This document shows, piece by piece, positions 8,663 to 40,098 of a DNA stretch of 64,000 bases; the first letter of the stretch is position 1, and the number at the start of each line of letters is the position of its first letter. The DNA comes from Parabacteroides faecis (GTDB lineage Bacteria; Bacteroidota; Bacteroidia; Bacteroidales; Tannerellaceae). Both the position numbers and the translations under genes were made by a program. Under the pieces are notes generated by a model. The model was not told where the DNA came from, made no database searches, and saw only the letters and a program-made list of their open reading frames with translations. The stretch is taken from the NCBI RefSeq assembly GCF_014647375.1, contig NZ_BMPB01000012.1, positions 1 through 64,000 of the forward strand. Reading direction: 5' to 3'.

Positions 8663-8684
8663 TATGGCTTACATCTGATAAGAT

Positions 8685-9890
8685 ATGATACAAAAAAATA
8701 AAGCGTTTAATCTCGGAACTTTCTTCTGTCTGTACATTGCTCAGACCATTCCGATGAGTTTTTTCTCTACCGTGATCCCGGTGATGATGAGGCAGGAGAA
8801 TTTCTCTTTGTCAGCCATCGGATTGCTGCAACTGATCAAGCTGCCCTGGATCCTGAAGTTCCTGTGGTCGCCGATGGTGGACCGTCATGCCCGGACAACG
8901 GGCGATTACAAGCGGTGGATCTTCTCTTCTGAGCTGATCTATGCCATCCTGATCTTTGCCGTTGCTTTCCTCGATTTTAAAACGGACTTTTATACCATCA
9001 TCGCTTTGATCATCGTGTCTTTTATCGCTTCAGCCACACAGGACATTGCGACCGATGCACTGGCTGTCCTTTCCTTTAACCGGAAGGATAAGAGCCTGGT
9101 GAACAGTATGCAGTCGATGGGTAGCTTCGGCGGTTCGATGATCGGCGGCGGGGTGTTGCTGCTGTTGTTTAAGCAATTGGGTTGGAACAGCCTGCTGCCG
9201 TGTGTGGCTCTGTTCGTGATCGTGGCTTTGCTTCCGTTGCTGTTCAACCGCGGCCTGGAGATTGCTCCGAAAGATACGCATGAAAGGGCGAAGAAAGCAG
9301 ATGTCTTTTATTTCTTTACCCAAAAGAATATATGGAAACAGATCGGTTTCCTGTTCCTCTATTATTCCGGCCTGATCGGTACACTGGCGATGTTGAAGCC
9401 TTATCTGGTCGACCTGGGATATTCCATGAAAGAGATCGGGGTGATGAGTGGCGTGGTCGGCACTTCCTTCGGTTTTGTTTTTTCTTTTATCGGAGGGTTT
9501 GTCGTACGGCGGATCGGGCGGCATTGGGCGCGTATCCTGTTTTCCGTCTTTGTATTGCTTGCCACGCTTTACTTCCTGGGACTTTCATATGTTACCCCGA
9601 CGATCGGCATGTTGTATGCCGGTATTGCCTTGCTTTGGGGGAGTTACGGCATGGCGACGATCGTTGTTTATACTACGGCGATGGATTGCGTACGTCCCGG
9701 ACGGGAAGGTACCGACTTTACGATACAGACAGTCATTACCCATTTGAGCGGGATGCTGATGGCGATATTGAGCGGAAAGATTGCCGACCATACCGGCTAT
9801 CACGGATTGTTTTTCTTTGAAGTCAGCCTGGCTGTCTTGTCGTTTGTTTATATATTAATCGTGTTCAGAAAAGAGAAAGAAACAGCATAG
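8685..9890 (+). CDS. AmpG/PAT-like major facilitator permease
   Basis: 401 residues with about 12 hydrophobic segments. The segments KLPWILKFLWSPMVDR (loop 2-3) and SATQDIATDALAV are characteristic of the AmpG/PAT branch of the major facilitator superfamily, whose known members carry muropeptides or acetyl-CoA across the inner membrane. Here the gene sits between TonB receptors and hemN, two bases before the latter, so the cargo may instead be a tetrapyrrole delivered to the periplasm by the receptors. That role is inference from context; the family call is firm. Confidence 0.8.
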   Translation: MIQKNKAFNLGTFFCLYIAQTIPMSFFSTVIPVMMRQENFSLSAIGLLQLIKLPWILKFLWSPMVDRHARTTGDYKRWIFSSELIYAILIFAVAFLDFKTDFYTIIALIIVSFIASATQDIATDALAVLSFNRKDKSLVNSMQSMGSFGGSMIGGGVLLLLFKQLGWNSLLPCVALFVIVALLPLLFNRGLEIAPKDTHERAKKADVFYFFTQKNIWKQIGFLFLYYSGLIGTLAMLKPYLVDLGYSMKEIGVMSGVVGTSFGFVFSFIGGFVVRRIGRHWARILFSVFVLLATLYFLGLSYVTPTIGMLYAGIALLWGSYGMATIVVYTTAMDCVRPGREGTDFTIQTVITHLSGMLMAILSGKIADHTGYHGLFFFEVSLAVLSFVYILIVFRKEKETA

Positions 9891-23318: not shown

Positions 23319-26300
23319 ATGAAGAAAAGAATAAGTATATCAACAATCCTACTACTTTTTGTTGCATTAAAAATATTGGGACAAACGAATCTGAAAGTCC
23401 ATACTTTAGGCAATTATGATAATAAATTATCGGACACGATAAGAATTGAAACAGAGTTGATACCTTCTTCACTTAAAGAACTATTGGATTCCCGTACGAA
23501 AGACGATAATAAGGAGTTGGAACAACCGAATGTGGCTACATTTTCTGTAGATAAAAGTAAAGAGGTTGGAACGATTGTCGGCACAGTCGATGTTACAGAA
23601 ACAGGTAGTGCCAACTATGTAATTCCAATAGAAGTACCAAAGGGAATAGTAGGATTAGAACCTGCAGTTTCAATTAATTATAACAGCCAGTTTGCTAATG
23701 GTTTAATGGGGTATGGATGGAATGTTGCTGCATTTTCTGCAATATCTCGTTGTGGTAAATCATATTATTATGATAATGTAACTGAGGCACCTCAACTCTC
23801 CAGTTCCGATAATCTGATGCTTGATGGGCAACGTTTACTATTGATTTCGGGGCAAAATCTTGTAGATGGAGCCAAGTATAGGATGGAATATGATCCATTT
23901 ACAGAAATTACATATAAAGTAGTAAATTCTGTTCTGTGCTTTGTGGTTAGGACAAAAGATGGAATGACAAAAGTTTTCGGTTCCACTTCTGATTCGAACA
24001 TAGGGGCTTCGAGTGGAAGTACATTATTTTGGGTATTATCAAAAGTGACAGATAAGAATGGTAATACAATAAATTATAAGTATGATGAAATTGTAAACAA
24101 TGGTGAGTTTTATCTTACAAAGATCGAATATGCAGGAAACCGTAGCGTAGAATTTGCTTATGAAACAAGAAGCGATAAGCAAAAGACATATTTTGCCGGT
24201 GCACAAATAAATAATAATAAAATACTGAAAAGTATTTCTACATATATAGGCCAAACCAGGATCAGACAGTATCAATTTAACTATACGAATGATGGTTTCT
24301 ATTCTAAATTAATTGAATTGATAGAGGTTGGGCAAAATAATAAACAGCACAATTCAACTGTTATAAATTATGGAAGTAGTGATGCTCAACAGAATGAATA
24401 TTTTTCAAGTTTGTCACAAAAAAGGGAAGGGAATAAACCCCTGTTTGCTGATTTTAATGGAGATGGAAAGGCTGATTTTCTTTCGTATCCGGAAAAAGAT
24501 TCGTATACGACTTCAGATGTAGCTACTTTATTTATAGCACAGAAAGTTTATGGAAGTGTAGACTTTGTTAAAAAGTGTACTATTCCTATTCAGTCTTCAT
24601 CTGGAGTGTTTCAGGGTTTTCTTTTAGCGGATCTGAATGGAGATGGATGTGCAGATGTTGTTAATATATCTAAGGCTTTAAACGGAACTTATCGTTATAA
24701 TTATTATATGTATGATGGAAAGAAGCTTACATATGATTACAAAGGATTTAATACAGATAGTAATGAGGCGATTGTAGGTGATTTTAATGGTGATGGTAAA
24801 CAAGAAGTATTGGTTGTTAAAAATCAGAAAGTCTTTGATGGTGAGGGAAAGGAAATAGCTTCTGGAGGTATTGATGATTGGGGAACAGAATATATTGAAG
24901 GTTATTATCCTAATAATAGATATCTCTGTGACTTTAATGGAAATGGAAAGGCTAATATACTTGTAATGAATGCGTCTGCTGGTTGGGTGTATGAGTTGAG
25001 TGGAAGAAGTTTTGTTAGATTGAACTCTTTTAATACATCAGAAATTAAAAATTATTATTTTCCATATTTTGGAGATTTTAATGGCGATGGTTATACGGAT
25101 ATTTTAATTCAAAACACATATTCAGCAAGTGGGAATGATGTCAGTATCTTATTTTCAACGGGAAAGGGATTCATAAAGCAAGAAATATCAAATGCAGATA
25201 TAGGGAAAAGCTCTAAAGTTTTTGTAGCAGATTTTAATAGAGATGGAAAATCAGATATTTTTCATATGAGTGTTGTTAATAATGCTGTGCGAATGAAAGT
25301 TGGAACATTTAATGGAACAAATTTTACAACGGCATATTATTCAACTGTTTTAAAACCGTCAGATATGTCTGTCCCAATTGAATATGAAAATTATCTTTTT
25401 CAAGTTGAAGATTTTGATGGAGACGGTAGAGGTGAATTTTGTTGTGCGAGATATGTGGATAGTTATATAATTCATTCTTTTACAGATAATCAGACTTTAC
25501 TAACAAAAACAATAACTAATGGACTTGGTGCACAGATATCATTTCAATATGCTCCAATAACAGAGGAGAGTGTTTGTTCTAGTAGCAATAATAATAATTA
25601 TCCGGTATCAGGTAATAGAGTTCCTTTATATGTAGTCACTAATGTTGTTCAGAATGCGAATGGATATAGTGAGAATATATATTATCGTTATAAAAATCCC
25701 CGAATTCATTTACAGGGAAAAGGCTTTTTAGGATTTGGTAGTATTGAGGCGGAAAATTATAATAAAGATAGAAAGATAACAACTCTTTATGGTTATAATG
25801 AATATTATTATCCTTTTATTCAAGAACAAAAGGTAACAACAAGAGCAGGCGCAAATGTATCTACTTCAGTCTATGAAAACTCTTATGTATACCAAGGAAA
25901 TAAACGTGTAACTCCTTATATAAGAAAGTTGACGGAGACGGATCATTTGACAAGTACTTTGAAAACTGTTGATTGTACGTCTACTGATAGTTGGGGAAAT
26001 CCATTAACTGTTATTACTAAGTATGGTAATGATCTTACAGAAACAGTAACAAACACTTACTTGAATAGTGGAGCGGAAAATGTATGGATATTTGGTTTAC
26101 CTCTTTCTCAAACGAAGCGAATAACAAGGGGAAGTGATAGTTGGATAGAAAAGCATACGTTTGAGTATAATGACAAATATTTGCTGGGAAAGTCGGTTGA
26201 ATATACTTCGGATGGGACTAAGAAGGTATTAGAGAATGTTTTTGGATATGATACATTCGGGAATATTACAAAGAAAATAGTTAAAAATTATTCTTCTTCT

Positions 26301-29246
26301 AATGAGTTGATAACCAAATATGAGTATTCTTCGGATGGAGTTTTTTTAACAAAAGAGACAGATCCATTATTGTTAGAGACTACGTGGAGATATAATTCAC
26401 TGGGACAAATCGAATTGAGCACAGACCCTTTAAAGAAAGCAACAACGTATAAATACGATAGTATGGGGGATTTGGTCAAAACTATTTTTCCTGATAATAC
26501 ATTTTCAACTACCATATTAACATGGAGCGATTCACCGACAAATGCTGTTTATTGTGTAACAGAGAGTTCTTCAGGTAGTCTGGTTACGAAAAAATTTTAT
26601 GATGCTTTTGAGCGAGAGCTAAGAAGTAGTATAATAGAATTTGATGGTTCCGAAAGAAAATATGATAAGAAATACGATAATGCCAGTCGTCTTTCTCAGG
26701 TTTCTCTACCGTTTAAAGGAAGTTCTGCAACGAAATGGAATATTTATAATTATGATAATTATGGACGATTGATACGTTTAGCTTATGCCTCAGGAAAATC
26801 AGATACATATTCTTATTCCGGTACGAGCATAACATTGACTAAAAATGGCATTCCTTCGGAACAAAAATATAATTCAAAGGGAGAATTGGTCTCAGTATCT
26901 GACCCTGCTGGAAAAATAACTTATAATCTGCGTCCTGATGGTCAACTTTCAAGTGTTGTGGCTCCAGGAGATATAACAACGACTTTTGAATATGATGAAT
27001 ATGGTAGAAGGAAAGCGATTGTAGATCCAAGTGCAGGTAGAAAAACTTTTACTTATGATGAAGCCGGAAACTTGAAAGAAGAGACCGATGCAGACAATAG
27101 AAAAAAAATATATTTATATGATGCATATGGGCGTATTATATCGAAGGAGTTTCAGAATGAATTCAAAACAACGTATAATTATGAAAAAGATTTATTGAGT
27201 TCTGTAACTTCTACTAATGGAACCTCACATACGTATCAATATGATAGCGGTATGTATGGTCGTCTCACTAAAGAGAGAGATAATGGTCCCGATGGAATGT
27301 GGTTGGAAAAGACTTATTCATATTCTTCCGGAAATTTGTCTTCCATTAATTTCACATCGCAAACAGGGGCTATCGGTACAGAATCTTACGTATATTCAAA
27401 TGGACATAAAAGTGAAGTGAAATTTGGTTCAACCAGTGTTTGGAAATTGAGAGAGGAAAATGATATGGGGCAGCCTGTGTCTGTAGTAACAGGACCATTA
27501 ACACGCTCTTATTCTTTTGATGAGTATGGTATTCCGACAGGTAGAACGACTTCTGCCTCTAATAATCGGATATTACAAAATGATACTTATACTTTCAATC
27601 GTTTAAATGGAAACCTCACGGCTCGTGTAGATAATACAAGAGATGTATCTGAAAATTTTAGTTATGATAATCTAAATCGTTTAACTCAATCTGCTGGTGG
27701 AACAGTAGCGTATGATATAAAAGGTAATATCATTCGAAAAGGAGATACTGGCAATCTTTTTTATTATAATACACCGAATAAACCTTATGCTATATCCAAA
27801 GTGGATGCTTCTAGACAGAATTCAATTCCTCCAAGAAATCAGGCAGTGAGTTATACCTCATTTGAGCGTCCTTCCGCTATTACCGAGAATGGCTATGAGG
27901 CTACGTTTGTCTATGATTTGGCAGGAAGTCGTAAGAAAATGCAGTTGAAATATAGCAAGAATGTTCAATTGGAACGTTACTATTTAGGTAACTGTTATGA
28001 AGCTGATTACAAAAACTTATTGGAAAAACAAATATTATATATTGGTGGAGATGCATATTCCGCTCCGGCTGTTTATGTGAATGAGGGTAACTCTTGGGCA
28101 ATGTATTATATTTGCCGTGATTATTTGGGTAGCATAACACATGTGATAAGCAGTAGTGGAACTGTTACACAAGAAAATAGTTTTGATGCTTGGGGACGTT
28201 TACGCAATCCGGCCACAAACGTTGTTTATTTACCAGGACAGGAACCCACCTTATTTTTAGGTAGAGGTTATACCGGGCATGAACATTTGTTACAGTTCGG
28301 TTTGGTAAATATGAATGCTCGTCTATACGATCCGGCCATAGGACGTATTCTGTCTCCTGATCCGTTTGTACAAATGCCTGATTTTTCACAAAACTTTAAC
28401 CGATATAGTTATTGTCTCAATAATCCATTGGTTTATGTGGATGAAGATGGGGAGTTCTTTTGGTTTATTGTTGGCGGGGCTGCGATAATTGGAGCGATAA
28501 CGAATGTAGCAACACATTGGAAGGAAATAAAAGCTATTGGTGGTTGGAAAGGTTTTTGGAAAGGAACCGGTTATTTTGTTGTAGGAGGAGTTGCTGCCGG
28601 AGCAGGTGCAGCAGCAGGCGTAGCGGCAGCCGTAGGATTTGGTGGAATGATGAGCGTTACTGCAGCTCAAATGGCTGCTGCATCCACTGGATTTATACCA
28701 GGAGCTACCATCGGTGCGGCTGGTGGTGCTACAAGTGGTTTTGTGTTAAACACTGGGAATAGCTTGGTGGATGGCGATCGATTTGGTGGAGCTTTGCAGA
28801 GTGGACTAATGAGAGGTCTAACCGGTGGTATTTTCGGAGGATTATCTGGTGGATTGATTGGAGGGGCCCAGGTGTTACAGCATGGACGTGACTTTTGGAC
28901 TGGTAAAATAACCAATCGTACATTGGTACAAAGAGCAGCAACTGTTGCAGAAAGAAATGTAGGAGGGAAAGGGGCTGTTGCAGGAACAAAAAAACATGGA
29001 TATGCAACGGAAATGCTAGAAAGATATCAGAATATGTATGAAGATAGGCAACTTTTTTTTAAAGAATACAAATATGATATTAATGGTAGAAAGAATATCC
29101 TTGATGTTTTGGATAAGAAAAATAAGATGATATATGATTGGAAATTTGGATATCCGAATAAAACTCCATTCCAATTAAATTCAACTCCTCAGATGCAAAA
29201 TTATCGTAGATTATGGGGATACCCTTCTGAGGTTATAAAACCTTAA
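23319..29246 (+). CDS. SpvB/FG-GAP/RHS-repeat toxin with PD-(D/E)XK-like tip
   Basis: 1975 residues. Order: signal peptide (1-21); SpvB-like region (about 85-180, VPKGIVGLEPAVSINYN); FG-GAP repeats (about 375-700, several copies like ADFNGDGKADF); YD/RHS repeats (about 980-1600, such as YDAYGRIISKEF); RHS core (about 1645-1710, ending GRILSPDPFVQMPDF and NRYSYCLNNPLVYVDEDGE). After the core comes a Gly/Ala-rich, membrane-active-looking linker (1730-1850), then a variable tip. The tip has D1929 and D1940-W-K1942 in LDVLDKKNKMIYDWKFG, the spacing of a PD-(D/E)XK nuclease active site, so DNA cleavage is likely. The shell resembles Tc-toxin B/C proteins, which enclose the tip. Immunity candidates follow directly. 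Confidence 0.88.
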   Translation: MKKRISISTILLLFVALKILGQTNLKVHTLGNYDNKLSDTIRIETELIPSSLKELLDSRTKDDNKELEQPNVATFSVDKSKEVGTIVGTVDVTETGSANYVIPIEVPKGIVGLEPAVSINYNSQFANGLMGYGWNVAAFSAISRCGKSYYYDNVTEAPQLSSSDNLMLDGQRLLLISGQNLVDGAKYRMEYDPFTEITYKVVNSVLCFVVRTKDGMTKVFGSTSDSNIGASSGSTLFWVLSKVTDKNGNTINYKYDEIVNNGEFYLTKIEYAGNRSVEFAYETRSDKQKTYFAGAQINNNKILKSISTYIGQTRIRQYQFNYTNDGFYSKLIELIEVGQNNKQHNSTVINYGSSDAQQNEYFSSLSQKREGNKPLFADFNGDGKADFLSYPEKDSYTTSDVATLFIAQKVYGSVDFVKKCTIPIQSSSGVFQGFLLADLNGDGCADVVNISKALNGTYRYNYYMYDGKKLTYDYKGFNTDSNEAIVGDFNGDGKQEVLVVKNQKVFDGEGKEIASGGIDDWGTEYIEGYYPNNRYLCDFNGNGKANILVMNASAGWVYELSGRSFVRLNSFNTSEIKNYYFPYFGDFNGDGYTDILIQNTYSASGNDVSILFSTGKGFIKQEISNADIGKSSKVFVADFNRDGKSDIFHMSVVNNAVRMKVGTFNGTNFTTAYYSTVLKPSDMSVPIEYENYLFQVEDFDGDGRGEFCCARYVDSYIIHSFTDNQTLLTKTITNGLGAQISFQYAPITEESVCSSSNNNNYPVSGNRVPLYVVTNVVQNANGYSENIYYRYKNPRIHLQGKGFLGFGSIEAENYNKDRKITTLYGYNEYYYPFIQEQKVTTRAGANVSTSVYENSYVYQGNKRVTPYIRKLTETDHLTSTLKTVDCTSTDSWGNPLTVITKYGNDLTETVTNTYLNSGAENVWIFGLPLSQTKRITRGSDSWIEKHTFEYNDKYLLGKSVEYTSDGTKKVLENVFGYDTFGNITKKIVKNYSSSNELITKYEYSSDGVFLTKETDPLLLETTWRYNSLGQIELSTDPLKKATTYKYDSMGDLVKTIFPDNTFSTTILTWSDSPTNAVYCVTESSSGSLVTKKFYDAFERELRSSIIEFDGSERKYDKKYDNASRLSQVSLPFKGSSATKWNIYNYDNYGRLIRLAYASGKSDTYSYSGTSITLTKNGIPSEQKYNSKGELVSVSDPAGKITYNLRPDGQLSSVVAPGDITTTFEYDEYGRRKAIVDPSAGRKTFTYDEAGNLKEETDADNRKKIYLYDAYGRIISKEFQNEFKTTYNYEKDLLSSVTSTNGTSHTYQYDSGMYGRLTKERDNGPDGMWLEKTYSYSSGNLSSINFTSQTGAIGTESYVYSNGHKSEVKFGSTSVWKLREENDMGQPVSVVTGPLTRSYSFDEYGIPTGRTTSASNNRILQNDTYTFNRLNGNLTARVDNTRDVSENFSYDNLNRLTQSAGGTVAYDIKGNIIRKGDTGNLFYYNTPNKPYAISKVDASRQNSIPPRNQAVSYTSFERPSAITENGYEATFVYDLAGSRKKMQLKYSKNVQLERYYLGNCYEADYKNLLEKQILYIGGDAYSAPAVYVNEGNSWAMYYICRDYLGSITHVISSSGTVTQENSFDAWGRLRNPATNVVYLPGQEPTLFLGRGYTGHEHLLQFGLVNMNARLYDPAIGRILSPDPFVQMPDFSQNFNRYSYCLNNPLVYVDEDGEFFWFIVGGAAIIGAITNVATHWKEIKAIGGWKGFWKGTGYFVVGGVAAGAGAAAGVAAAVGFGGMMSVTAAQMAAASTGFIPGATIGAAGGATSGFVLNTGNSLVDGDRFGGALQSGLMRGLTGGIFGGLSGGLIGGAQVLQHGRDFWTGKITNRTLVQRAATVAERNVGGKGAVAGTKKHGYATEMLERYQNMYEDRQLFFKEYKYDINGRKNILDVLDKKNKMIYDWKFGYPNKTPFQLNSTPQMQNYRRLWGYPSEVIKP

Positions 29247-29343: not shown

Positions 29344-30018
29344 ATGAATGAAATAATAGAAATGAAAGATATCTTAAAAGACTGGCAGAAACAATTTCCT
29401 ATTTTGTCTCGATATTCATCTACAAGTCTGTATATGAAGGCTGATCTTGTTTTATTAGGATTAAAATTAGAGAAAGTTTTTTCTACTGTATATCGACCAA
29501 CATTAATATGTCTTCCTTTATGGGAAAAATCAAAAAAAACAATTCCCATTTTCTGGTGTGAATTGTTAGATAATAAGAAATTACAATTTGATATTAAATA
29601 TCAATTACATAATTACTTATTTCCAGCGGCGATTGAGTGCGCTAAAATACAATTTGGATTTGTTTTTAAAGAAGAGGTTTTATTAAGTGATTTATTTTTT
29701 TATTTGAATAAATATTTGTCTTATCGTTTATTAGAAAATGATCCTTTAATTTTGTATCGTTTGTTTGAATTTAAGTTAGCTATTGCTCTTTATTTTGATG
29801 ATTTAAAATTGATAGATAATATTAAAATTGAAATAGAAAAAGAGTCAAAATTATGGGAACCTGAACGTTTTAAATATTTATTCGAAAAATCTATAGAAGA
29901 ATGGAAAGATGATTTATATAGAAAATTTGAAAATAGGGATACTTTTATAGAACAATTGAATCAGAATGTTTCTGATAAGAAGATTTCAAAGCTGAAATCA
30001 GCTCATCTGCTGTTTTGA
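29344..30018 (+). CDS. Probable immunity protein for the RHS nuclease tip
   Basis: 224 residues, no signal peptide, helical and rich in Lys, Glu, Leu and Phe. It begins 97 bp after the RHS gene, the usual place for a cognate immunity gene, and is strongly AT-rich like the toxin tip. Its C-terminal third (YRLFEFKLAIALYFDD, IEKESKLWEPERF, ending SKLKSAHLLF) recurs as a decayed fragment at 33040-33316, so the family has been copied within the locus. No named immunity family is recognised; function is inferred from position. Confidence 0.6.
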   Translation: MNEIIEMKDILKDWQKQFPILSRYSSTSLYMKADLVLLGLKLEKVFSTVYRPTLICLPLWEKSKKTIPIFWCELLDNKKLQFDIKYQLHNYLFPAAIECAKIQFGFVFKEEVLLSDLFFYLNKYLSYRLLENDPLILYRLFEFKLAIALYFDDLKLIDNIKIEIEKESKLWEPERFKYLFEKSIEEWKDDLYRKFENRDTFIEQLNQNVSDKKISKLKSAHLLF

Positions 30019-30030
30019 TTTTTTAATAAT

Positions 30031-30546
30031 ATGGTAAGGCGAATAGTAATAAAAATAGGTGATGTATTTTGTGCTGAGATTGATAATCAGCACAAGAGAT
30101 ACTTTCAGTATATTGTGAATGACATGGAGCAATTGAATAGTTCTGTGATACGAGTGTTTAAAACTCATTATCCAATGGAACATAAACCAGTTTGTGATGA
30201 AGTTGTAAAAGATGAAGTTGAGTTTTATGCACATACGGTTCTGCGGGCAGGTATTGTAAATAATGCTTGGTACAAGGTTGGTAAGTCAAAAGATCTAGGA
30301 GGTGATGAATATATGGATGTACTGTTTGGAATAGCACAAGCCTGTATGGGAGATTCTCCTACAAATATAAAATGGGTAGATCCGGTAGAGAACTGGTATG
30401 TTTGGCATATAAATGAGCCAAGTGTTCGTATCGGAAGGCTTACAGAAGAATATCGGCATGTTGAGATGGGGCCGGTAATGTCTTATATTTCTATTGTTGA
30501 TAGGCTTAGATATGGACATTATACAAATAAATTTCCAGGATATTAA
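30031..30546 (+). CDS. Putative immunity protein, Imm26-like
   Basis: 171 residues, cytoplasmic. It starts MVRRIVIKIGDVFCAEIDNQ, reminiscent of the beta-barrel immunity proteins (Imm26 type) that open with a G-D-V/I-F strand. It lies 12 bp after the previous candidate immunity gene. A near-identical but truncated copy is at 31142-31476. The C-terminal part missing from that copy contains NWYVWHINEPSVRIGRLTEE and the end HYTNKFPGY. The Imm26 link is from the N-terminal pattern only. Confidence 0.5.
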   Translation: MVRRIVIKIGDVFCAEIDNQHKRYFQYIVNDMEQLNSSVIRVFKTHYPMEHKPVCDEVVKDEVEFYAHTVLRAGIVNNAWYKVGKSKDLGGDEYMDVLFGIAQACMGDSPTNIKWVDPVENWYVWHINEPSVRIGRLTEEYRHVEMGPVMSYISIVDRLRYGHYTNKFPGY

Positions 30547-30668: not shown

Positions 30669-31145
30669 ATGAAAGAGGTGATTAATATAAATAATGTTTC
30701 TTCTCGTTTGATTGATTTAAATTCGATAGATAATAGTGAGGAGATTATTATATCTAACTCAATTATAGATGAGATAAATTTTGCATCTTTGATATTTTCG
30801 AAGAAAGTCTGTATCTCTAAGTGTATAATTGATAAGTTTGTAATTCATTCAAGTTGGTTTGAAGGGGAACTGAATTTTGTTGATAATATTGTTCTTTCTG
30901 ATATTGATTATCAAATGGGAGGACATAATATCACAAATTTTGTTTTGGAAAGAAATCTTTTTAATGGATTCTTTAGCTTTTTTGATTGTCAGTTTGAAGG
31001 AGATGTTATAGTTAAAAATAATATATTTAAAAAGGGGAGCGATCTTTTGCTTAAAGAGGATAAGGGATTTGATAATTTATTCGAACGACAGTTGATTATA
31101 GAGAATAATATAGGTCGTTTGGATATGTTTCTTGATTTAATATGA
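30669..31145 (+). CDS. Beta-helix-like putative immunity protein
   Basis: 158 residues. Short strands repeat with a roughly regular hydrophobic spacing (EIIISNSIIDEINFASLIF, VCISKCIIDKFVIHSSWF, GDVIVKNNIFKKGSD), as in right-handed beta-helix or pentapeptide-like proteins, some of which protect DNA-acting enzymes. No signal peptide. Its stop overlaps the next gene's ATG by 4 bp. Position inside the immunity array suggests a protective role, but this is inference. The start ATG at 30669 is chosen because the nearby ATGs at 30662 and 30665 run into an early stop. Confidence 0.5.
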   Translation: MKEVININNVSSRLIDLNSIDNSEEIIISNSIIDEINFASLIFSKKVCISKCIIDKFVIHSSWFEGELNFVDNIVLSDIDYQMGGHNITNFVLERNLFNGFFSFFDCQFEGDVIVKNNIFKKGSDLLLKEDKGFDNLFERQLIIENNIGRLDMFLDLI

Positions 31146-31504
31146 AAAAACGAATAGTAACAAAAATCGGTAATGTCTTTTGCGCAGAGATTGACGATAA
31201 ATTTAAAAGATATTTTCAATATATCGTAAATGATATGGAAATGTTGAATAGTTCTGTGATACGGGTATTTAAAACTCATTATCCGATGGAACATAAGCCT
31301 GTTTGTGATGAAATTGTGAAAGATGAGGTGGAATTTTATGCACATACGGTTCTGCGGGTAGGTATTGTAAATAATGCTGGGTACAAGGTTGGTAAGTCAA
31401 AAGATCTAGGAGGTGATGAATATATGGATGTATTGTTTGGAATAGCACAAGCCTGTATGGGAGATTCTCCTACAAATCAGGTGCAGGTTTTGGCGCTGAG
31501 TTGA
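31142..31504 (+). pseudogene. Truncated copy of the Imm26-like gene
   Basis: Residues 1-111 match the intact gene at 30031 closely; the DNA of the last 200 bases before the break is almost identical. At about 31476, just after GDSPTN, the sequence switches to an RHS C-terminal fragment and the frame ends after eight foreign residues (QVQVLALS). The C-terminal third is therefore missing. It overlaps the previous gene by 4 bp. The break is a recombination junction between an immunity gene and a toxin-tip cassette. Confidence 0.75.
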
Positions 31505-31848
31505 AAGCTGGATTCGTAGGAGGTGCGTTGAGTGCTGCTTTTAGTGGTATATCCGGTGGTTTGATACGTGGGTTTACGGATATGGCTAAAGGATATTCTT
31601 TTGGAATGGAAGAACAACCTCTGAGTTTGTAATAGGAAATTCAATAGAAAAGACAGATTATAAATCAATGGGAGATAATTATAATGACAGTTTTACTGCT
31701 GAATTGAATGATGAAAACCTGAGAACTAGAATTCAAGGAGAGCTTCTCAACCAGTAAAGGCATTTCAGTGGATGCAAAACGCTATTAGTCGACGTTTTTT
31801 TGGCACCCTGGTAGTTATGAAATTCCCTATATTTATAGGTTTAGATAA
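31477..31848 (+). pseudogene. Orphan RHS C-terminal tip, frameshifted
   Basis: The frame starting near 31478 reads GAGFGAELKAGFVGGALSAA and continues to DMAKGYSF, the same linker as at 34411-35053. One T is missing after YSF relative to that copy, which shifts the frame; the correct frame continues as WNGRTTSEFVIGN and later DNYNDSFTAELND. A second interruption lies near 31755-31790, after which STFFWHPGSYEIPYIYRFR runs to TAA at 31846-31848. That stop overlaps the ATG of the next gene (TAATG). It is an inactive toxin tip with no RHS shell of its own. Confidence 0.7.
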
Positions 31849-32594
31849 TGAAATATATATTTGTCATACTATTTATGTTTTGTGCAAATCCTTTATTTGC
31901 ACAAAGATATGTTTTGGGTGAAAGTAATTTCTTGAACCATTGGACTCAGGAGTATATGGATTGTCGGTTGTATCTATTGGACAATAAATATACTATGAAA
32001 TTATCTTTGATATCAGATGATATCGTTTTTAATATGTTTCCCTTTTATGGGTATGTCCGAAAAGAGGGAAATTTGTATTATTTGAAAGATATTCCAACCA
32101 ATGCTGAAATAGTCTTGGAAAAGGATAAGTCTGCTAATTTCAATATAAAAAAGGGCTTTTCATTTATGCAAAAGAAATGTCTTACTTATGAAGACAAAGC
32201 TGATAGTGATGATTTTTCTTGGTTTGATATCGATGTTGAGAATGATAAAAAGAAGAAAGATGTTCAATCAGTAAGAGATAAACAGTTACCTGATAAACTA
32301 AAATTTAGGTTTGGGGAATATATGAATGGGAATGTTCATGTGTCTCTTGAAGAAAATGGCTCATATACAATTGCATATAGATTTCAAGAGTATTTGATTG
32401 TAATTTCAGAAGGAAAATGGTCAACCAGAAATGGTATTTTAAAATTAAGAGATCCATTTCTTAATTATTCGTTTACAATGTTGATAAGCGTGGATAAAAA
32501 GTTGATTGCGATTGATTTTCCAAATGAACTGAACGAGGAGTGGATATACTCCTTTGTGGAAGAAGGGAATAAATATAAAAAAATAAATTTGTAG
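31848..32594 (+). CDS. Family-of-four protein, copy 1 (secreted; putative immunity)
   Basis: 248 residues with a signal peptide (MKYIFVILFMFCANPLFAQ). It has three paralogs at 33652, 35053 and 39382 sharing DIVFNMFPFYG, a YYLKDIP-x-AEIVLEK segment, KKGFSFM, and SEGKW followed by a G-x-L-x-L-x-D pattern and NYSF. Its ATG overlaps the stop of the upstream RHS tip (TAATG), which argues that it is the cognate immunity protein of that tip. The signal peptide would place it in the periplasm, or on the outer membrane. I know no named family. Confidence 0.65.
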   Translation: MKYIFVILFMFCANPLFAQRYVLGESNFLNHWTQEYMDCRLYLLDNKYTMKLSLISDDIVFNMFPFYGYVRKEGNLYYLKDIPTNAEIVLEKDKSANFNIKKGFSFMQKKCLTYEDKADSDDFSWFDIDVENDKKKKDVQSVRDKQLPDKLKFRFGEYMNGNVHVSLEENGSYTIAYRFQEYLIVISEGKWSTRNGILKLRDPFLNYSFTMLISVDKKLIAIDFPNELNEEWIYSFVEEGNKYKKINL

Positions 32595-32607
32595 GAATAA
32601 AAATTCC

Positions 32608-33033
32608 TTATCCAGGCAAAAATATAATAAACGGGATCTATCTTTTTCCTCAAAAAGATCAAATGTATCCTTTTTCTATGTGGTAATTCTTTGTATAAGA
32701 GTGTGTAAGATAGAAATATGAAAAACAAAAAAAATGAAAATAGCAAACTTATTATTGATTTTACTTCTACCTATCTGTTTAGGTAGTTGCGCTCCGAAAG
32801 TAATAACCCATATCGAAAGAAGTTACTCTCCTCGTGCTGCGGCAGAGGAGGTTCATTTATATGGAGTGGGACAAACCGTACCGGAATCGGCAGAGTTGAT
32901 AGGAACTGTAAAGGTAGTGGATAGTGGAGCTTCAACCAAATGTAATTATGACCAGGTTGTTGCACTGGCAAAACAGACAACCTCCAAAAACGGAGGAAAT
33001 GCGTTAGCCCTGACCGATCATCGGGAGCCTTCT
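32608..33033 (+). repeat. Duplicated block, copy A
   Basis: This block matches 35726-36151 at a constant offset of 3118 bp with few differences. It includes the 3' end of a lost family-of-four gene (frame ending DQMYPFSMW), the leader, and the first 100 codons of a lipoprotein gene. It ends at the REPS codons, where the two copies diverge. The edges mark recombination breakpoints. Confidence 0.8.
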
Positions 33034-33174
33034 TTTTTATTCCAAGCAAACAATTCTTTTCGTATACCATTGATGGAGGTGGAATTATATTTGGCAAAGT
33101 ATAGTAATAATAGAATATTATTAGACAGTATCATGAATAATATTGATAAAAAATCAAAAAAAATGGCATCCTGA
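32734..33174 (+). pseudogene. 5' part of lipoprotein gene fused to an immunity-gene remnant
   Basis: Residues 1-100 are the N-terminus of the lipoprotein/barrel protein at 35852 (lipobox LGSC, then APKVITHIERSYSP). After REPS the sequence switches in frame to FRIPLMEVELYLAKYSNNR, which aligns with the C-terminal third of the immunity protein at 29344. The frame is then lost in a run of eight A residues near 33155-33164, ending with MAS. It is a chimera produced by recombination and is probably non-functional; the exported N-terminal part might still be made. Confidence 0.7.
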
Positions 33175-33316
33175 TCATTTTAATATATCTATTGAACTTT
33201 GGAAAAAGGAGTTGTTTGAAAAAGTGGATCACTGGGATAAGGTTCTTTGTTGTATTCAGAATAATTTGAATAATCCTAAAATAGCAAAACTGAATAAGGC
33301 CCATCTGATATTTTAA
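33040..33316 (+). pseudogene. C-terminal remnant of an immunity gene
   Basis: Across the A-run frameshift the sequence reads LLDSIMNNIDKKSKK, then WHPDHFNISIELWKKELFEK and finally NPKIAKLNKAHLIF before TAA at 33314-33316. This parallels IDNIKIEIEKESKLWEPERF and SDKKISKLKSAHLLF in the intact protein at 29344-30018. Only the last third is left. The first part of the remnant is in frame with the lipoprotein fragment; the rest is shifted by one base. Confidence 0.65.
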
Positions 33317-33383
33317 GATATAAAGAAAACGCAGTCAAAATATTAACATATTCTAAAATCACCGGACAATTACCTCATGACAA

Positions 33384-33641
33384 TTGTCTGATGATTTTAT
33401 GATTGATAGGCCTACGTACGAGGTTACAGTCGCTCAAATGACTGTTGCATCCACAGGATTTATACCTGGAGCTACTATAGGTGCTGTAGGAGGTGCTACA
33501 AGTGGCTTTGTATTAAACACTGGAAATAGTTTGATGGATGGCGAGCGATTTGGTGGAGCTTTGCAGAGTGGACTAATGGGAGGTCTAACTCCTAGTAATT
33601 ATAATTTAGGAAATACTATAAAATCAATGTGGCTTTATTAA
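33384..33641 (+). pseudogene. Orphan RHS linker fragment
   Basis: The 85-codon frame contains ASTGFIPGATIGAVGGATSG and a following VLNTGNSLMDGERFGGALQS, which repeats residues 1782-1835 of the main RHS protein, with DNA matching at an offset near 4767 bp. After MGGLT the match stops and PSNYNLGNTIKSMWLY follows. There is no RHS core and no full toxin domain. It is followed 10 bp later by copy 2 of the family-of-four, the same order as at the other two tips. Confidence 0.7.
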
Positions 33642-33651
33642 ATTTGTAACT

Positions 33652-34368
33652 ATGCTAAAATCTTTTTATAACTTAAAAAAAACTTTAGTTCAAATATATG
33701 AGCTGAAAAATTCTTTTTTTGAAAAAAATATTTCATGTTATTTAGAAATGATAAATAATAGGGAGTATTGTATTTATTTTATTATTGGACCAGGTGATGA
33801 TAGGTTGATTTTATTTCTGTCTTTCGGATCAATGTCTGTGAAGGGGAGTAGTATTTTTTTGACTGATATAGGAAGTAATTCGACTTTAATTCTGGAAAAA
33901 AGAAACAATATTGATCTATTTGTAAAAAAAGGTTTTAAATTAATGCATGGGAAATATTTTATTTATGTAGATGAATCAGACTCTTTTACACATAAATCTA
34001 TATTGGATATAAACGGTGAATCAGAAAAAAGAAAGAAGAAAGTAGAGGACTATTTAAGTTTAATAAACTCAGATCGTATCCCTTTACAATTAGGAGTGTA
34101 TGATAATGGATATGTTTATTTAGATATAAATATAAATTTTGATTTTAGAATCTATTATTTGATAGAAAGAAAAGTTTTTTTGTTATCAGAAGGTAAATGG
34201 ATGAAAGATGGTAATAAATTGCAGTTATATGACTCATGTTTGGACTATTATTTTTTACTCCTAATTGATTCTGGATCATTAATTTCAGTTTATTTTCCAA
34301 ATGAGATAAATGAGAGTGATCGATATTATTTAGTTAAAAATGGATTGTATGCATTTATTATGAGATGA
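33652..34368 (+). CDS. Family-of-four protein, copy 2 (putative immunity)
   Basis: 238 residues. It carries the family landmarks TLILEKRNNIDLFVKKGFKL, then PLQLGVYDNG, LLSEGKWMKDGNKLQLYD and FPNEINES, and ends AFIMR like copy 4. It has no signal peptide, unlike copy 1, and is very AT-rich. It follows an orphan RHS linker fragment. Loss of the signal peptide may make it cytoplasmic or be a result of 5' recombination. Confidence 0.6.
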   Translation: MLKSFYNLKKTLVQIYELKNSFFEKNISCYLEMINNREYCIYFIIGPGDDRLILFLSFGSMSVKGSSIFLTDIGSNSTLILEKRNNIDLFVKKGFKLMHGKYFIYVDESDSFTHKSILDINGESEKRKKKVEDYLSLINSDRIPLQLGVYDNGYVYLDININFDFRIYYLIERKVFLLSEGKWMKDGNKLQLYDSCLDYYFLLLIDSGSLISVYFPNEINESDRYYLVKNGLYAFIMR

Positions 34369-34410
34369 GTGTTAATATATACCAGAATAATACAACATGA
34401 TATTATTTAG

Positions 34411-35053
34411 AGTCTGTTTGTCGGTGCGGCTTCGGGTGTGGCTGGTGCATGGGCTGGTGGAGCTGTGGCTGGGTCGATAACAGCGGGCGGTTTCATTCAT
34501 GGAAGTCTATCAGGTTTGGCTGGTGGATTTGGTGGAGGTTTTGTTGGTTGTTTCGGAAATACTTGGTTATCAGGTGCTGGTTTTGGCGTTGGGTTGAAAG
34601 CTGGATTCGTTGGAGGTGCGTTGAGTGCTGCTTTTAGTGGTATATCCGGTGGTTTGATACGTGGGTTAACGGATATGGCTAAAGGGTATTCATTTTGGGA
34701 TGGAACAAAAACTTCTCAATTTGTAGTGGGAAAAGCTGGAAATTATAATGATATTGCAAAAACATACAATGCAAGTGCAGATGCTGGAATTAATGATGCT
34801 AAGTTGAAAAATAGACTTTGGTCTGAGTTTGATGTTGTGGAGGGAAATTTTAGAATTGACATTCAATGTTAAATATGTGAAAAAGTTTTCTGAAAGTATA
34901 GCTTATAAATATTCCGCATCTACTTATATGACTGTGGGAAAAGTGTTTGAAGCTGTTGATATGATGAGAACAGCAACTAGACTTGGTTATTGGAATGCAT
35001 CTGGAGCTGTGAACTACTATAAAAGCATAGGGGTTCCTAGTATTTGGTGGTAA
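34411..35053 (+). pseudogene. Orphan RHS C-terminal tip with a frameshift
   Basis: The sequence opens in mid-protein (LFVGAASGVAGAWAGG) with no ATG; the longest frame starts from GTG at 34438 and runs to 34872 through GGFGGGFVGCFGN and GGLIRGLTDMAKGYSFWDG. Near 34850 the frame changes: the alternative frame gives REILELTFNVKYVKKFSESI and RTATRLGYWNASGAVNYYKS, ending SIGVPSIWW with TAA at 35051-35053. The stop overlaps the next gene's ATG (TAATG). The tip type is unknown. Missing RHS core and the frameshift suggest a silent cassette. Confidence 0.65.
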
Positions 35054-35745
35054 TGTTAATTTTATTTAACGGCATGAATGCTTCTCAGAATATTATATAT
35101 GATGAATATGTCTTGTCTGATGTATCCGGGTTGAGATATATCAATATAACGCGAAATAATAGAATGATAGGTGTGAATATAAGGATTGTTCTTTTATTGA
35201 TAAATAAGACTTATTACAGTATGAGGATTGATCTTCTTGGGTATAATCCAAATATTGAGACTTTATTTTCTTATGGATGTTTTAATCAAGAAAATAATGT
35301 TGTCTTCTTGAAAGATGTTCCTTCCGGATTTCAAATGGTTCTGGAAAAAATAGATGAATTGTCTTTTCTTTGTAAGAAAGGTTTTTATTTTTTAGAAAAT
35401 AAAATATTTCAATATAAGGAAAGTTCTTCTATTGAAGAATATTTCCCTATTGATAGATGGATTGTAGAACATAGAAAAAGAGAAGATTTGTTTAGAAAAG
35501 AAAAATTGAATTATCCTATACCTTTTAAATTAGGTACTTATGGGCATAGTCTAATAATAGAAGTAAATAATCGATATAAGTTATTCGAAGATGCTGATGT
35601 TGATCTACGTTTGCTATTATCTGAAGGCTCATGGAGAAAGGATGGAAATGAATTAAGATTATATGATTCTAGTCTTGATTATTCATTTCTATTGTTAATT
35701 AGAAACGATGATTTGTTAAAAATCGTTATCCAGACAATAATATAA
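35053..35745 (+). CDS. Family-of-four protein, copy 3 (putative immunity)
   Basis: From the ATG at 35053, 230 residues (MLILFNGMNASQNI). The ATG shares its A with the stop of the RHS tip just upstream. A TTG further upstream in frame is possible but unlikely. Family segments include FQMVLEKIDELSFLCKKGFY, PFKLGTYGHS and LLSEGSWRKDGNELRLYD. The normal C-terminus is lost: near 35720 the frame meets copy B of the duplicated block and ends as KIVIQTII, while the family-like ending (YPDNNIINGIYLF, MYPFTMW) continues out of frame. The protein is therefore slightly truncated and altered at the end. Confidence 0.55.
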   Translation: MLILFNGMNASQNIIYDEYVLSDVSGLRYINITRNNRMIGVNIRIVLLLINKTYYSMRIDLLGYNPNIETLFSYGCFNQENNVVFLKDVPSGFQMVLEKIDELSFLCKKGFYFLENKIFQYKESSSIEEYFPIDRWIVEHRKREDLFRKEKLNYPIPFKLGTYGHSLIIEVNNRYKLFEDADVDLRLLLSEGSWRKDGNELRLYDSSLDYSFLLLIRNDDLLKIVIQTII

Positions 35746-36151
35746 TAAACGGGATCTATCTTTTTCCTCAAAAAGATCAAATGTATCCTTTTACTATGTG
35801 GTAATTCTGTGTATAAAAGTATGTAAGGTAACAGCATAAAATACGAAAATAATGAAAATAGCAAACTTATTATTGATTTTACTTCTACCTATCTGTTTAG
35901 GTAGTTGCGCTCCGAAAGTAATAACCCATATCGAAAGAAGTTACTCTCCTCGTGCTGCAGCGGAGGAGGTGCATTTATATGGAGTGGGACAAACCGTGCC
36001 AGAATCGGCAGAGTTGATAGGAACTGTAAAGGTGGTGGATAGTGGAGCTTCAACCAAATGTAATTATGACCAGGTTGTTGCACTGGCAAAACAGACAACC
36101 TCCAAAAACGGAGGAAATGCGTTAGCCCTGACCGATCATCGGGAGCCTTCT
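35726..36151 (+). repeat. Duplicated block, copy B
   Basis: This is the second copy of the block at 32608-33033. Here the lipoprotein gene continues intact beyond the block, so this is probably the original arrangement for that gene. The start of the block again carries an out-of-frame tail of a family-of-four gene. Confidence 0.8.
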
Positions 36152-36805
36152 CTTTTAGGAAGCAGTTGCCACCAAATAGCAGGCAATATGTTGTGGATAG
36201 GTGATGCGACCAATCTGGAAACTGAAATTGCTCCGGTAGTTACGACTTCCGGTCGTGATAATAATGCAGGTGTTTCTAAAAGTTCGTTTTATCATAGTAC
36301 GATCTATGCCAATATCGGTTATGCCTTTATGACGAATAAATTTTATCTTCCCAACGGAGCGTCGGGTCATCCCAGGAAAGGAATGGATTGGCAAGTCGGT
36401 TATGATTGGGTGTCAAGGAGTGGTTTTGGCGCTGGTCTGATGTATTCGGGATATAAGTCATCTTACAGTTATTCCCATGTGGATGTGAATGTAGGGCTTG
36501 CTTATATTGCTCCTCAGTTCGTGATGAAACAAAAAGTGGGTCGTTGGGGAATAGAAGAAAAGTTCGGCATCGGTTATTTTAAATATCGTGAATCGGCGAA
36601 AGGAGTTAGTGAATCGCTATCGGGATTTGGGTATAACTTCCTGATCGGAGCAGAATATTATTTGTCTGATCATATAGGAATCGGAGCGAATTTAGGGTAT
36701 ATTGGCAGTTCTCTTCCTAAACAGGATAATATGGACTATAAGGATGGAGAACATTCGGGAATATTTCGTTTGCATCTGGATGCTGGAATACGTTTTCATT
36801 TCTGA
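35852..36805 (+). CDS. Lipoprotein with C-terminal outer-membrane beta-barrel
   Basis: 317 residues. The signal MKIANLLLILLLPICLGSC ends in a lipobox (C19). Residues 20-115 are a small domain with IGTVKVVDSGASTKCNYDQV and KNGGNALALTDHREP, like the metal- or peptide-associated folds in other Bacteroidetes lipoproteins. From about 145 the alternating strands (STIYANIGYAFMTNKFYL, GAGLMYSGYKSSYSYSHVDV, IGIGANLGYIGSSL) form an OmpW/porin-like barrel ending in RLHLDAGIRFHF. Function is unknown. A truncated copy is at 32734. Confidence 0.65.
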   Translation: MKIANLLLILLLPICLGSCAPKVITHIERSYSPRAAAEEVHLYGVGQTVPESAELIGTVKVVDSGASTKCNYDQVVALAKQTTSKNGGNALALTDHREPSLLGSSCHQIAGNMLWIGDATNLETEIAPVVTTSGRDNNAGVSKSSFYHSTIYANIGYAFMTNKFYLPNGASGHPRKGMDWQVGYDWVSRSGFGAGLMYSGYKSSYSYSHVDVNVGLAYIAPQFVMKQKVGRWGIEEKFGIGYFKYRESAKGVSESLSGFGYNFLIGAEYYLSDHIGIGANLGYIGSSLPKQDNMDYKDGEHSGIFRLHLDAGIRFHF

Positions 36806-39361: not shown

Positions 39362-39381
39362 TTGTGTTAAGTTCGGATAAT

Positions 39382-40098
39382 ATGACATATCCTCAATCGT
39401 ACTCATTTGGGAATGACAACACATGGCGGGATGCGAAATCGAAATGGAATAACATGCCGATACCAATTTCTTGTAGCTTATATTTGTTACAGGAGAATCG
39501 CTATTATATTGATATTAGTATTTGGGAGTCGGATGATATTGTTTTTGGAATGTTTCCGTCTTATGGCACTTTTTACAAAAGAGGAAAGTTTTATTATTTA
39601 GAGGATATCTCAAGTGGAGCTGAGCTTGTATTGAAAGAAGTGAAGTATTCCAATTTATTGGTGAAGAAAGGCTTTTGTTTTATGAAAAATGAGTGTTTTT
39701 TCAAGGATGAATATACTTATGATTCGGATGAGAATATGATTGATTTTGAGGAAGAAGCCGTGAAAAGACAAAGGAGGGAACTGGATTTATTGAAGAATAA
39801 ACAAACAGATCCTGTGCCTTTGCAATTGGGTGTCTATAAAAATGGAACTATTTCGTTGTTTTTAGAGCTTGATTTTCATTATAGAATTCTTTTTTTCAGT
39901 GAGAGTCCTCTTTGCTTACTTTCAGAAGGGAAATGGGAAAAACACGGAAATGTACTGCATTTGTATGATCCTTCTCTGAATTATACGTTTTTGGCCTTTG
40001 TAGATGTGAAGGGTGTAAAAATGATTCGTTTTCCGAATTGTGGCTATCCAGATTGGATGTATGACTTATCTATAGGATATCCGTTTATTATGAGATGA
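39382..40098 (+). CDS. Family-of-four protein, copy 4
   Basis: From the ATG at 39382, 238 residues (MTYPQSYSFGNDNTWRDAK). A GTG at 39364 in the same frame is possible and would add six residues. Family landmarks are SDDIVFGMFPSYG, YYLEDISSGAELVLKE, KKGFCFM, PLQLGVYKNG and LLSEGKWEKHGNVLHLYD, with the ending YPFIMR. It has no signal peptide although copy 1, its closest match in the first half, does. No RHS fragment is left beside it, so it could be an orphan immunity gene. Confidence 0.6.
   Translation: MTYPQSYSFGNDNTWRDAKSKWNNMPIPISCSLYLLQENRYYIDISIWESDDIVFGMFPSYGTFYKRGKFYYLEDISSGAELVLKEVKYSNLLVKKGFCFMKNECFFKDEYTYDSDENMIDFEEEAVKRQRRELDLLKNKQTDPVPLQLGVYKNGTISLFLELDFHYRILFFSESPLCLLSEGKWEKHGNVLHLYDPSLNYTFLAFVDVKGVKMIRFPNCGYPDWMYDLSIGYPFIMR

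Follow-up and report, generated by a model that had tools for sequence, protein, structure and literature searches.

Orphan rhs-CT/rhsI and cdiA-CT/cdiI modules have been described, along with the expression of an orphan immunity gene and with toxin fragments, most of which are devoid of start signals (PMC3150448). In gut Bacteroidales, orphan immunity genes make up the acquired interbacterial defence (AID) arrays and the recombinase-associated (rAID) arrays (PMC12247911). As to metallopeptidase toxins, the table of PMC3482391 lists no immunity protein for Tox-MPTase1-5, and the C-terminal metallopeptidase of VgrG2b is an antibacterial gluzincin neutralised by PA0261, a bound, exported, cognate protein (PMC6899460). 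The comparisons made below concern the passages cited from these four sources. Here, we analyse a 64,000-nucleotide stretch of the Parabacteroides faecis genome (contig NZ_BMPB01000012.1, positions 1 to 64,000; hereafter the window), which carries four related genes, W1 to W4, and three remnants of RHS toxin tips (Table 1). We propose, with a probability of about 0.82, that the W1-W4 family provides orphan immunity to an RHS-borne metallopeptidase toxin and has been kept beside disarmed tips.

As in the orphan modules of PMC3150448, displaced tips and immunity genes lie downstream of a main RHS (or contact-dependent growth inhibition, CDI) gene; the orphan toxin of Escherichia coli EC93 is still functional, whereas the three tips of the window lack a catalytic core. 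Similarly to Tox-MPTase2 and other RHS metallopeptidase toxins (PMC3482391), the toxin considered here occurs in Bacteroidetes on a TcdB/TcaC-type RHS carrier and has an HExxH motif, but no Tox-MPTase Pfam model matched its four intact tips at E 1. It shares with VgrG2b (PMC6899460) the HExxH motif and a third, glutamate ligand, a likeness drawn from the published description on their side and from sequence on ours. VgrG2b is carried by a type VI secretion system spike in Pseudomonas and its partner is exported, whereas several members of our family lack a signal peptide by eye. Like the AID and rAID arrays (PMC12247911), the window holds a bank of Bacteroidales immunity genes without the cognate effector; unlike in rAID arrays, toxin remnants are still attached. 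The tyrosine recombinase profile PF00589 had 23 matches in this genome, none of them in the window and the nearest on the contig about 86 kb beyond it, so that, by this test, the array is not of the rAID kind. The likeliest account is an RHS-type toxin/immunity family with a metallopeptidase as the toxin, of which this genome keeps the orphan immunity genes beside disarmed tips; its mode of action would resemble that of VgrG2b and PA0261, and its organisation resembles that of the orphan modules of PMC3150448.

Tip remnants of the window and intact tips of its relatives

An initial annotation, made from the sequence alone, stated that RHS tips end inside the start codons of a family of four genes. 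The TAATG overlaps that it reported are present at 31846-31850 (W1) and 35051-35055 (W3), as is a third junction, where a linker fragment ends at 33641, 10 bp ahead of the W2 start at 33652. The family does comprise four members (with identities to the first of 31, 29 and 35% for the remaining three), and no further match was found in the 6.66-Mb genome. In a hand-picked list of same-strand genes, none of 33 successive gaps was a 1-nt overlap (3 of them skip other genes, leaving about 30 true neighbours). TAATG also occurs in two related loci, at 8999-9003 of L023, from the nearest named relative P. goldsteinii, and at 9769-9773 of L028. By homology, both TAA codons of the window are very probably original toxin stops. 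We reject a chance origin of TAATG, given the homology of the two stops to those of toxins and the presence of such junctions in relatives.

The tips are not the whole tips that this annotation took them for. All three are broken, lack the catalytic core and the HExxH motif, and match the toxin-domain profile outside the catalytic core only. In remnant 1, the frame ending at 31848 has six in-frame stops ahead of its last codon, and the toxin start sits in yet another frame; the match to the profile is limited to positions 3-39, and positions 8570-8889 of L023, which hold the HELIH zinc motif, have no counterpart. Remnant 2 consists of two overlapping frames (34438-34872 and 34829-35053), the second of which has the SESIAYKY motif, and remnant 3 keeps about 16 toxin codons. 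Translational coupling through TAATG, which had been suggested for these junctions, is unsupported in this genome because the upstream frames are interrupted, and the genome has no intact toxin/immunity pair of this family. The deletion joints of tips 1 and 3 are near-blunt, with at most a few shared bases, so that the core seems to have been lost in separate events of illegitimate deletion. So little sharing of bases gives no support, at these two joints, to recombination between repeats as the cause.

The proposed toxin/immunity pairing therefore fails for the present state of this genome, where the toxin halves are broken and devoid of the zinc motif, and is supported as a matter of ancestry, since relatives have four intact tips and one frame-broken tip with a member at -1 to 22 nt. 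The intact tips lie directly ahead of members in L023 (-1 nt), L028 (1 nt), L040 (13 nt) and L029 (22 nt). The L023 tip (8039-9001) is itself an orphan located downstream of the main RHS gene of its own strain, and it ends one base inside the ATG of the member; a second, frame-broken tip of L023 stands 4 nt from its member. The L028 tip is the 3' part of an RHS gene (672 amino acids) behind another RHS frame. In L029 and L040, the toxin is the C-terminal part of full-length RHS proteins (2014 and 2217 amino acids, respectively) with the small gene directly downstream, as expected of RHS-CT/immunity modules.

The four intact tips share a domain of about 180 residues (8459-8998 in L023; the other three being 42, 39 and 40% identical to the first, that of L023), in which HELxHxYH is invariant and is followed by a glutamate 17 residues past the second histidine in L023 numbering (H111, E112, H115 and E132, all invariant in alignment A2 of the four tips). 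The domain has the pattern of a gluzincin-type zinc metallopeptidase, judging from this motif and from weak matches below cut-off: SprT-like (E 1.5e-4, 22.0 bits, for a cut-off of 25.6) and M48 (E 0.007). The best match of Peptidase_M91 to the four tips (E 0.17) was also under the Pfam cut-off. A PDB sequence search with the toxin gave no match, nor did a plasmid search; in viral contigs, the toxin profile gave 42 pattern matches with no relative among them.

Association between the putative toxin and the family

The check suggested in the initial annotation, a search for the family beside RHS or other toxin C-termini elsewhere, supported the pairing with RHS tips from both sides. With the family profile, members were found in 5 of 39 genus, 7 of 124 family and 7 of 393 order genomes, and in the P. 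faecis genome only in a 395-genome draw of the phylum. In the order draw, profiles built from 4 and from 19 members both gave 7 of 393 (at most 7 candidates per genome were scored in the 19-member search). The search from the toxin side matched 3 of 124 family and 8 of 393 order genomes, the remnants of P. faecis being included in both counts. All five toxin loci of the same subfamily (L023 twice, once frame-broken; L028; L029; L040) are followed by a member within 22 nt, and members also occur at the more distant tip of L041, with a gene between, and behind the truncated tip of L042. By contrast, the distant HExxH tips of genomes G418, G219 and G135 (about 390 nt readable in the last) have no member downstream, and that of G128 ends at a contig edge. 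The link therefore looks specific to one toxin subfamily. In terms of genome co-occurrence, the hypergeometric p value is 2.4e-6 for the order and 1.1e-4 for the family, kinship being ignored. Because a member adjoins each of the five toxin loci of this subfamily but none of three more distant tips, the family is very probably, on this comparative evidence, the immunity partner cognate to a so far unnamed metallopeptidase toxin carried by RHS proteins.

The tie to a single tip subfamily, and the signal peptides seen by eye on some members, would also suit an RHS accessory, such as a chaperone for tips of this class or a factor in their maturation. We regard such a role as improbable, since the family persists in several genomes without a toxin match, forms tandem arrays of diverged copies (L028 and L030), and holds the position that RHS immunity genes have in PMC3150448.

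Apart from the fused TonB_C part of the L042 protein, none of the scanned members matched a Pfam or NCBIfam model over cut-off. The N-terminal half of the immunity protein was modelled as a calycin-like barrel; Foldseek found nothing for the predicted model at E 0.001, and a PDB sequence search gave two weak rows (E 0.24 and 1.1). One could thus imagine an ordinary envelope lipocalin-like protein hitchhiking beside RHS tips, the more so as some loci show no RHS sequence. This is the least credible of the explanations considered, in view of the five same-subfamily loci out of five with an adjacent member, and of the rarity of the family in the order and phylum draws.

The initial annotation had named homologs occurring mainly away from toxin genes as an observation that would speak against it. 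Among the 16 loci gathered (L024 and L068 included), the fetched stretch contains RHS sequence at nine (the window, L023, L028, L029, L030, L040, L041, L042 and L068; the RHS piece of L030 comes after the members) and no RHS match at five (L024, L027, L031, L039 and L044); two (L026 and L043) are cut by contig ends. The five loci without RHS are the first of several points that weigh against the orphan-immunity reading. Second, the distant HExxH tips mentioned above have no member behind them. Third, toxin and immunity identities are only moderately correlated (Mantel r 0.55 over 6 pairs, a value equalled or exceeded in 31 of 720 permutations). Fourth, a signal peptide is seen by eye in some members and not in several others, which bears on the compartment where they would act. 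Fifth, the zincin fold rests on sequence, because the AlphaFold model predicted for the toxin has a pLDDT (predicted local distance difference test) score of 30. Sixth, W3 and several copies of relatives are truncated or split. Seventh, the selection estimates given below also span an earlier period.

Retention of the putative immunity genes

W1, which is 93% identical to positions 9001-9753 of L023, W2 and W4 are full-length open frames. Against L023, the ratio of nonsynonymous to synonymous rates (dN/dS) is 0.21 for W1, 0.32 for W2 and 0.11 for the RHS core, values that also cover the time preceding toxin loss. A test of synonymous excess, which covered W1 and W2, was significant for both (18 synonymous and 18 nonsynonymous changes, p 1.7e-5; 26 and 39 changes, p 7.8e-5, respectively). 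For W4 and its counterpart in genome G038 (L027; 71% identical protein), dN/dS is 0.15, a rough value as dS exceeds 1. The dS values of W1 and L023a (0.144) and of W2 and L023b (0.222) are well under the 0.54 of the RHS core, which suggests that these modules had been exchanged after the species split and had moved more recently than the species diverged.

Members are kept in six genomes that give no hit to the toxin profile at E 0.001 (G021, G038, G064, G125, G136 and G163). The lone member of G038 has no RHS match in 20 kb, and the genes flanking it are, by eye, those found at about 15-18 kb in the window. W4 follows an outer-membrane beta-barrel gene and not a tip. A plasmid search with W1 gave 1 record, and a phage search with W1 gave no match. 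The Bacteroides-type -7 motif, TANNTTTG, stands within 150 nt ahead of 4 of 18 members, one of them in the window, in all cases without an upstream TTTG.

The array could instead be the wreckage of past tip exchanges, whose former immunity genes are now neutral passengers. W3 has lost its C-terminal 20 or so residues at a joint, the copy on a P. distasonis plasmid (L068) is split in two, L028 includes a truncated member, and several near-blunt joints scar the locus. Nevertheless, W1, W2 and W4 are full-length whereas none of the three tips is intact, the synonymous excess is seen in W1 and W2, and members persist in the six genomes without a toxin match. We consider this explanation rather doubtful, though clearly less so than the accessory or envelope roles.

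We favour orphan immunity, and propose the following mechanism. At working loci, the toxin would occupy the last ~180 residues of an RHS protein of the SpvB/TcdB type, and the immunity gene would start at or just past the toxin stop, so that both would be made together. The immunity protein, presumably a two-repeat beta protein whose first half is modelled as a lipocalin/NlpE-like barrel, would bind and block the protease in producing cells and their siblings. In this genome, the resident RHS protein now bears another tip, and the three former metallopeptidase modules downstream of it have no catalytic core left, while the putative immunity genes have stayed in place. The W-family genes would confer, or would until recently have conferred, orphan immunity to a toxin that neighbouring bacteria continue to use. 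The gene order, the toxin motif in relatives, the missing core in the window, the two-way association and the synonymous excess of W1 and W2 are observations; toxicity, neutralisation through binding and a present role in orphan immunity are inferred.

Table 1. Positions in the window of the W1-W4 genes, the tip remnants and the resident RHS gene.
Feature	Position	Strand	Description
Resident RHS protein	23319..29246	+	1975 amino acids; SpvB, TcdB_toxin_midN, FG-GAP, RHS repeats; signal peptide (by eye)
Tip remnant 1	31477..31848	+	RHS linker, toxin-domain start and final toxin codons; catalytic core gone
W1	31848..32594	+	248 amino acids, signal peptide (by eye); putative orphan immunity gene
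Tip remnant 3	33384..33641	+	RHS linker joined at ~33589/33590 to the last ~16 codons of the toxin
W2	33652..34368	+	238 amino acids, signal peptide absent (by eye); corresponds to L023 10218-10940
Tip remnant 2, first frame	34411..34872	+	RHS linker and toxin-domain start (profile 1-49)
Tip remnant 2, second frame	34829..35053	+	Toxin-domain end (profile 123-166)
W3	35053..35745	+	230 amino acids; C-terminus ~20 amino acids shorter than in other members
W4	39364..40098	+	ATG probably at 39382; not preceded by a tip

Neighbouring genes and significance

The genome is of Parabacteroides type. The tip of the resident RHS protein (28900-29246) has no match to the metallopeptidase profile, and neither this tip nor the following 224-amino-acid gene matched a Pfam family. 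A D...DWKFG stretch in the tip presumably resembles PD-(D/E)xK nucleases, and might be one. Judged by eye, a 57-amino-acid frame at 33143-33316 is similar to the C-terminal end of 29344-30018, the gene that follows the resident RHS, and is probably a remnant of that gene family. The frames at 30031-30546 and 31142-31504 are two versions of a single gene (88% identity over 340 bp); the first has a weak Imm26 match under the cut-off (E 0.042), the second is cut at 31477 and continues into an RHS linker, and a similar stretch follows RHS in L023 (7312-7857). After W1 and after W3 stands a 440-bp stretch (32600-33039 and 35718-36157, 94.5% identical), which is the start of a lipoprotein-like gene (MKIANLLLILLLPICLGSC) whose first copy is itself cut short. 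The end of W3 is cut at 35718, where this duplicated stretch begins.

Other genes accompany the family in relatives. In L042 (7892-9034, minus strand), directly after the truncated metallopeptidase tip, a member is fused to a C-terminal TonB_C domain in a 380-amino-acid protein, which looks like a poly-immunity fusion. A small TonB_C gene overlaps or directly follows another class of RHS tips, ending in PRRW, at 8446-8877 of L068 (Pfam match) and at about 13452-13883 of L030 (minus strand; by eye). This is where an immunity gene would be expected, and TonB_C may have been used repeatedly for RHS immunity in Bacteroidales. In two distant genomes, a member is followed by a similar, apparently exported protein (by eye; L031, 10309-11196, and L041, 2205-3119), which is possibly another part of immunity arrays.

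No description of the family appeared in the titles and abstract beginnings among the matches listed. The family is new; its kind, RHS toxin/immunity pairs and orphan immunity, is already known. More tentatively, we suggest a repeatable disarming route, which we hold possible but less likely than not: after a tip exchange, the displaced metallopeptidase module would lose its catalytic core by illegitimate deletion, its distal end and immunity gene would be kept under selection, and a bank of diverged antidotes would accumulate without the weapons. If true, this route would address a question raised by PMC3150448, namely why toxin fragments persist if it is immunity that is collected. As the toxin and immunity halves decay at different rates, the orphan-immunity hypothesis is testable, and the intact toxin of a close relative makes it possible to test the retained genes against it. 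Together, these data propose a likely function for a family in which no scanned member matched a Pfam or NCBIfam model over cut-off, the fused TonB_C part of L042 aside, and offer a candidate immunity partner for the RHS metallopeptidase class that was listed without one in 2012 (PMC3482391).

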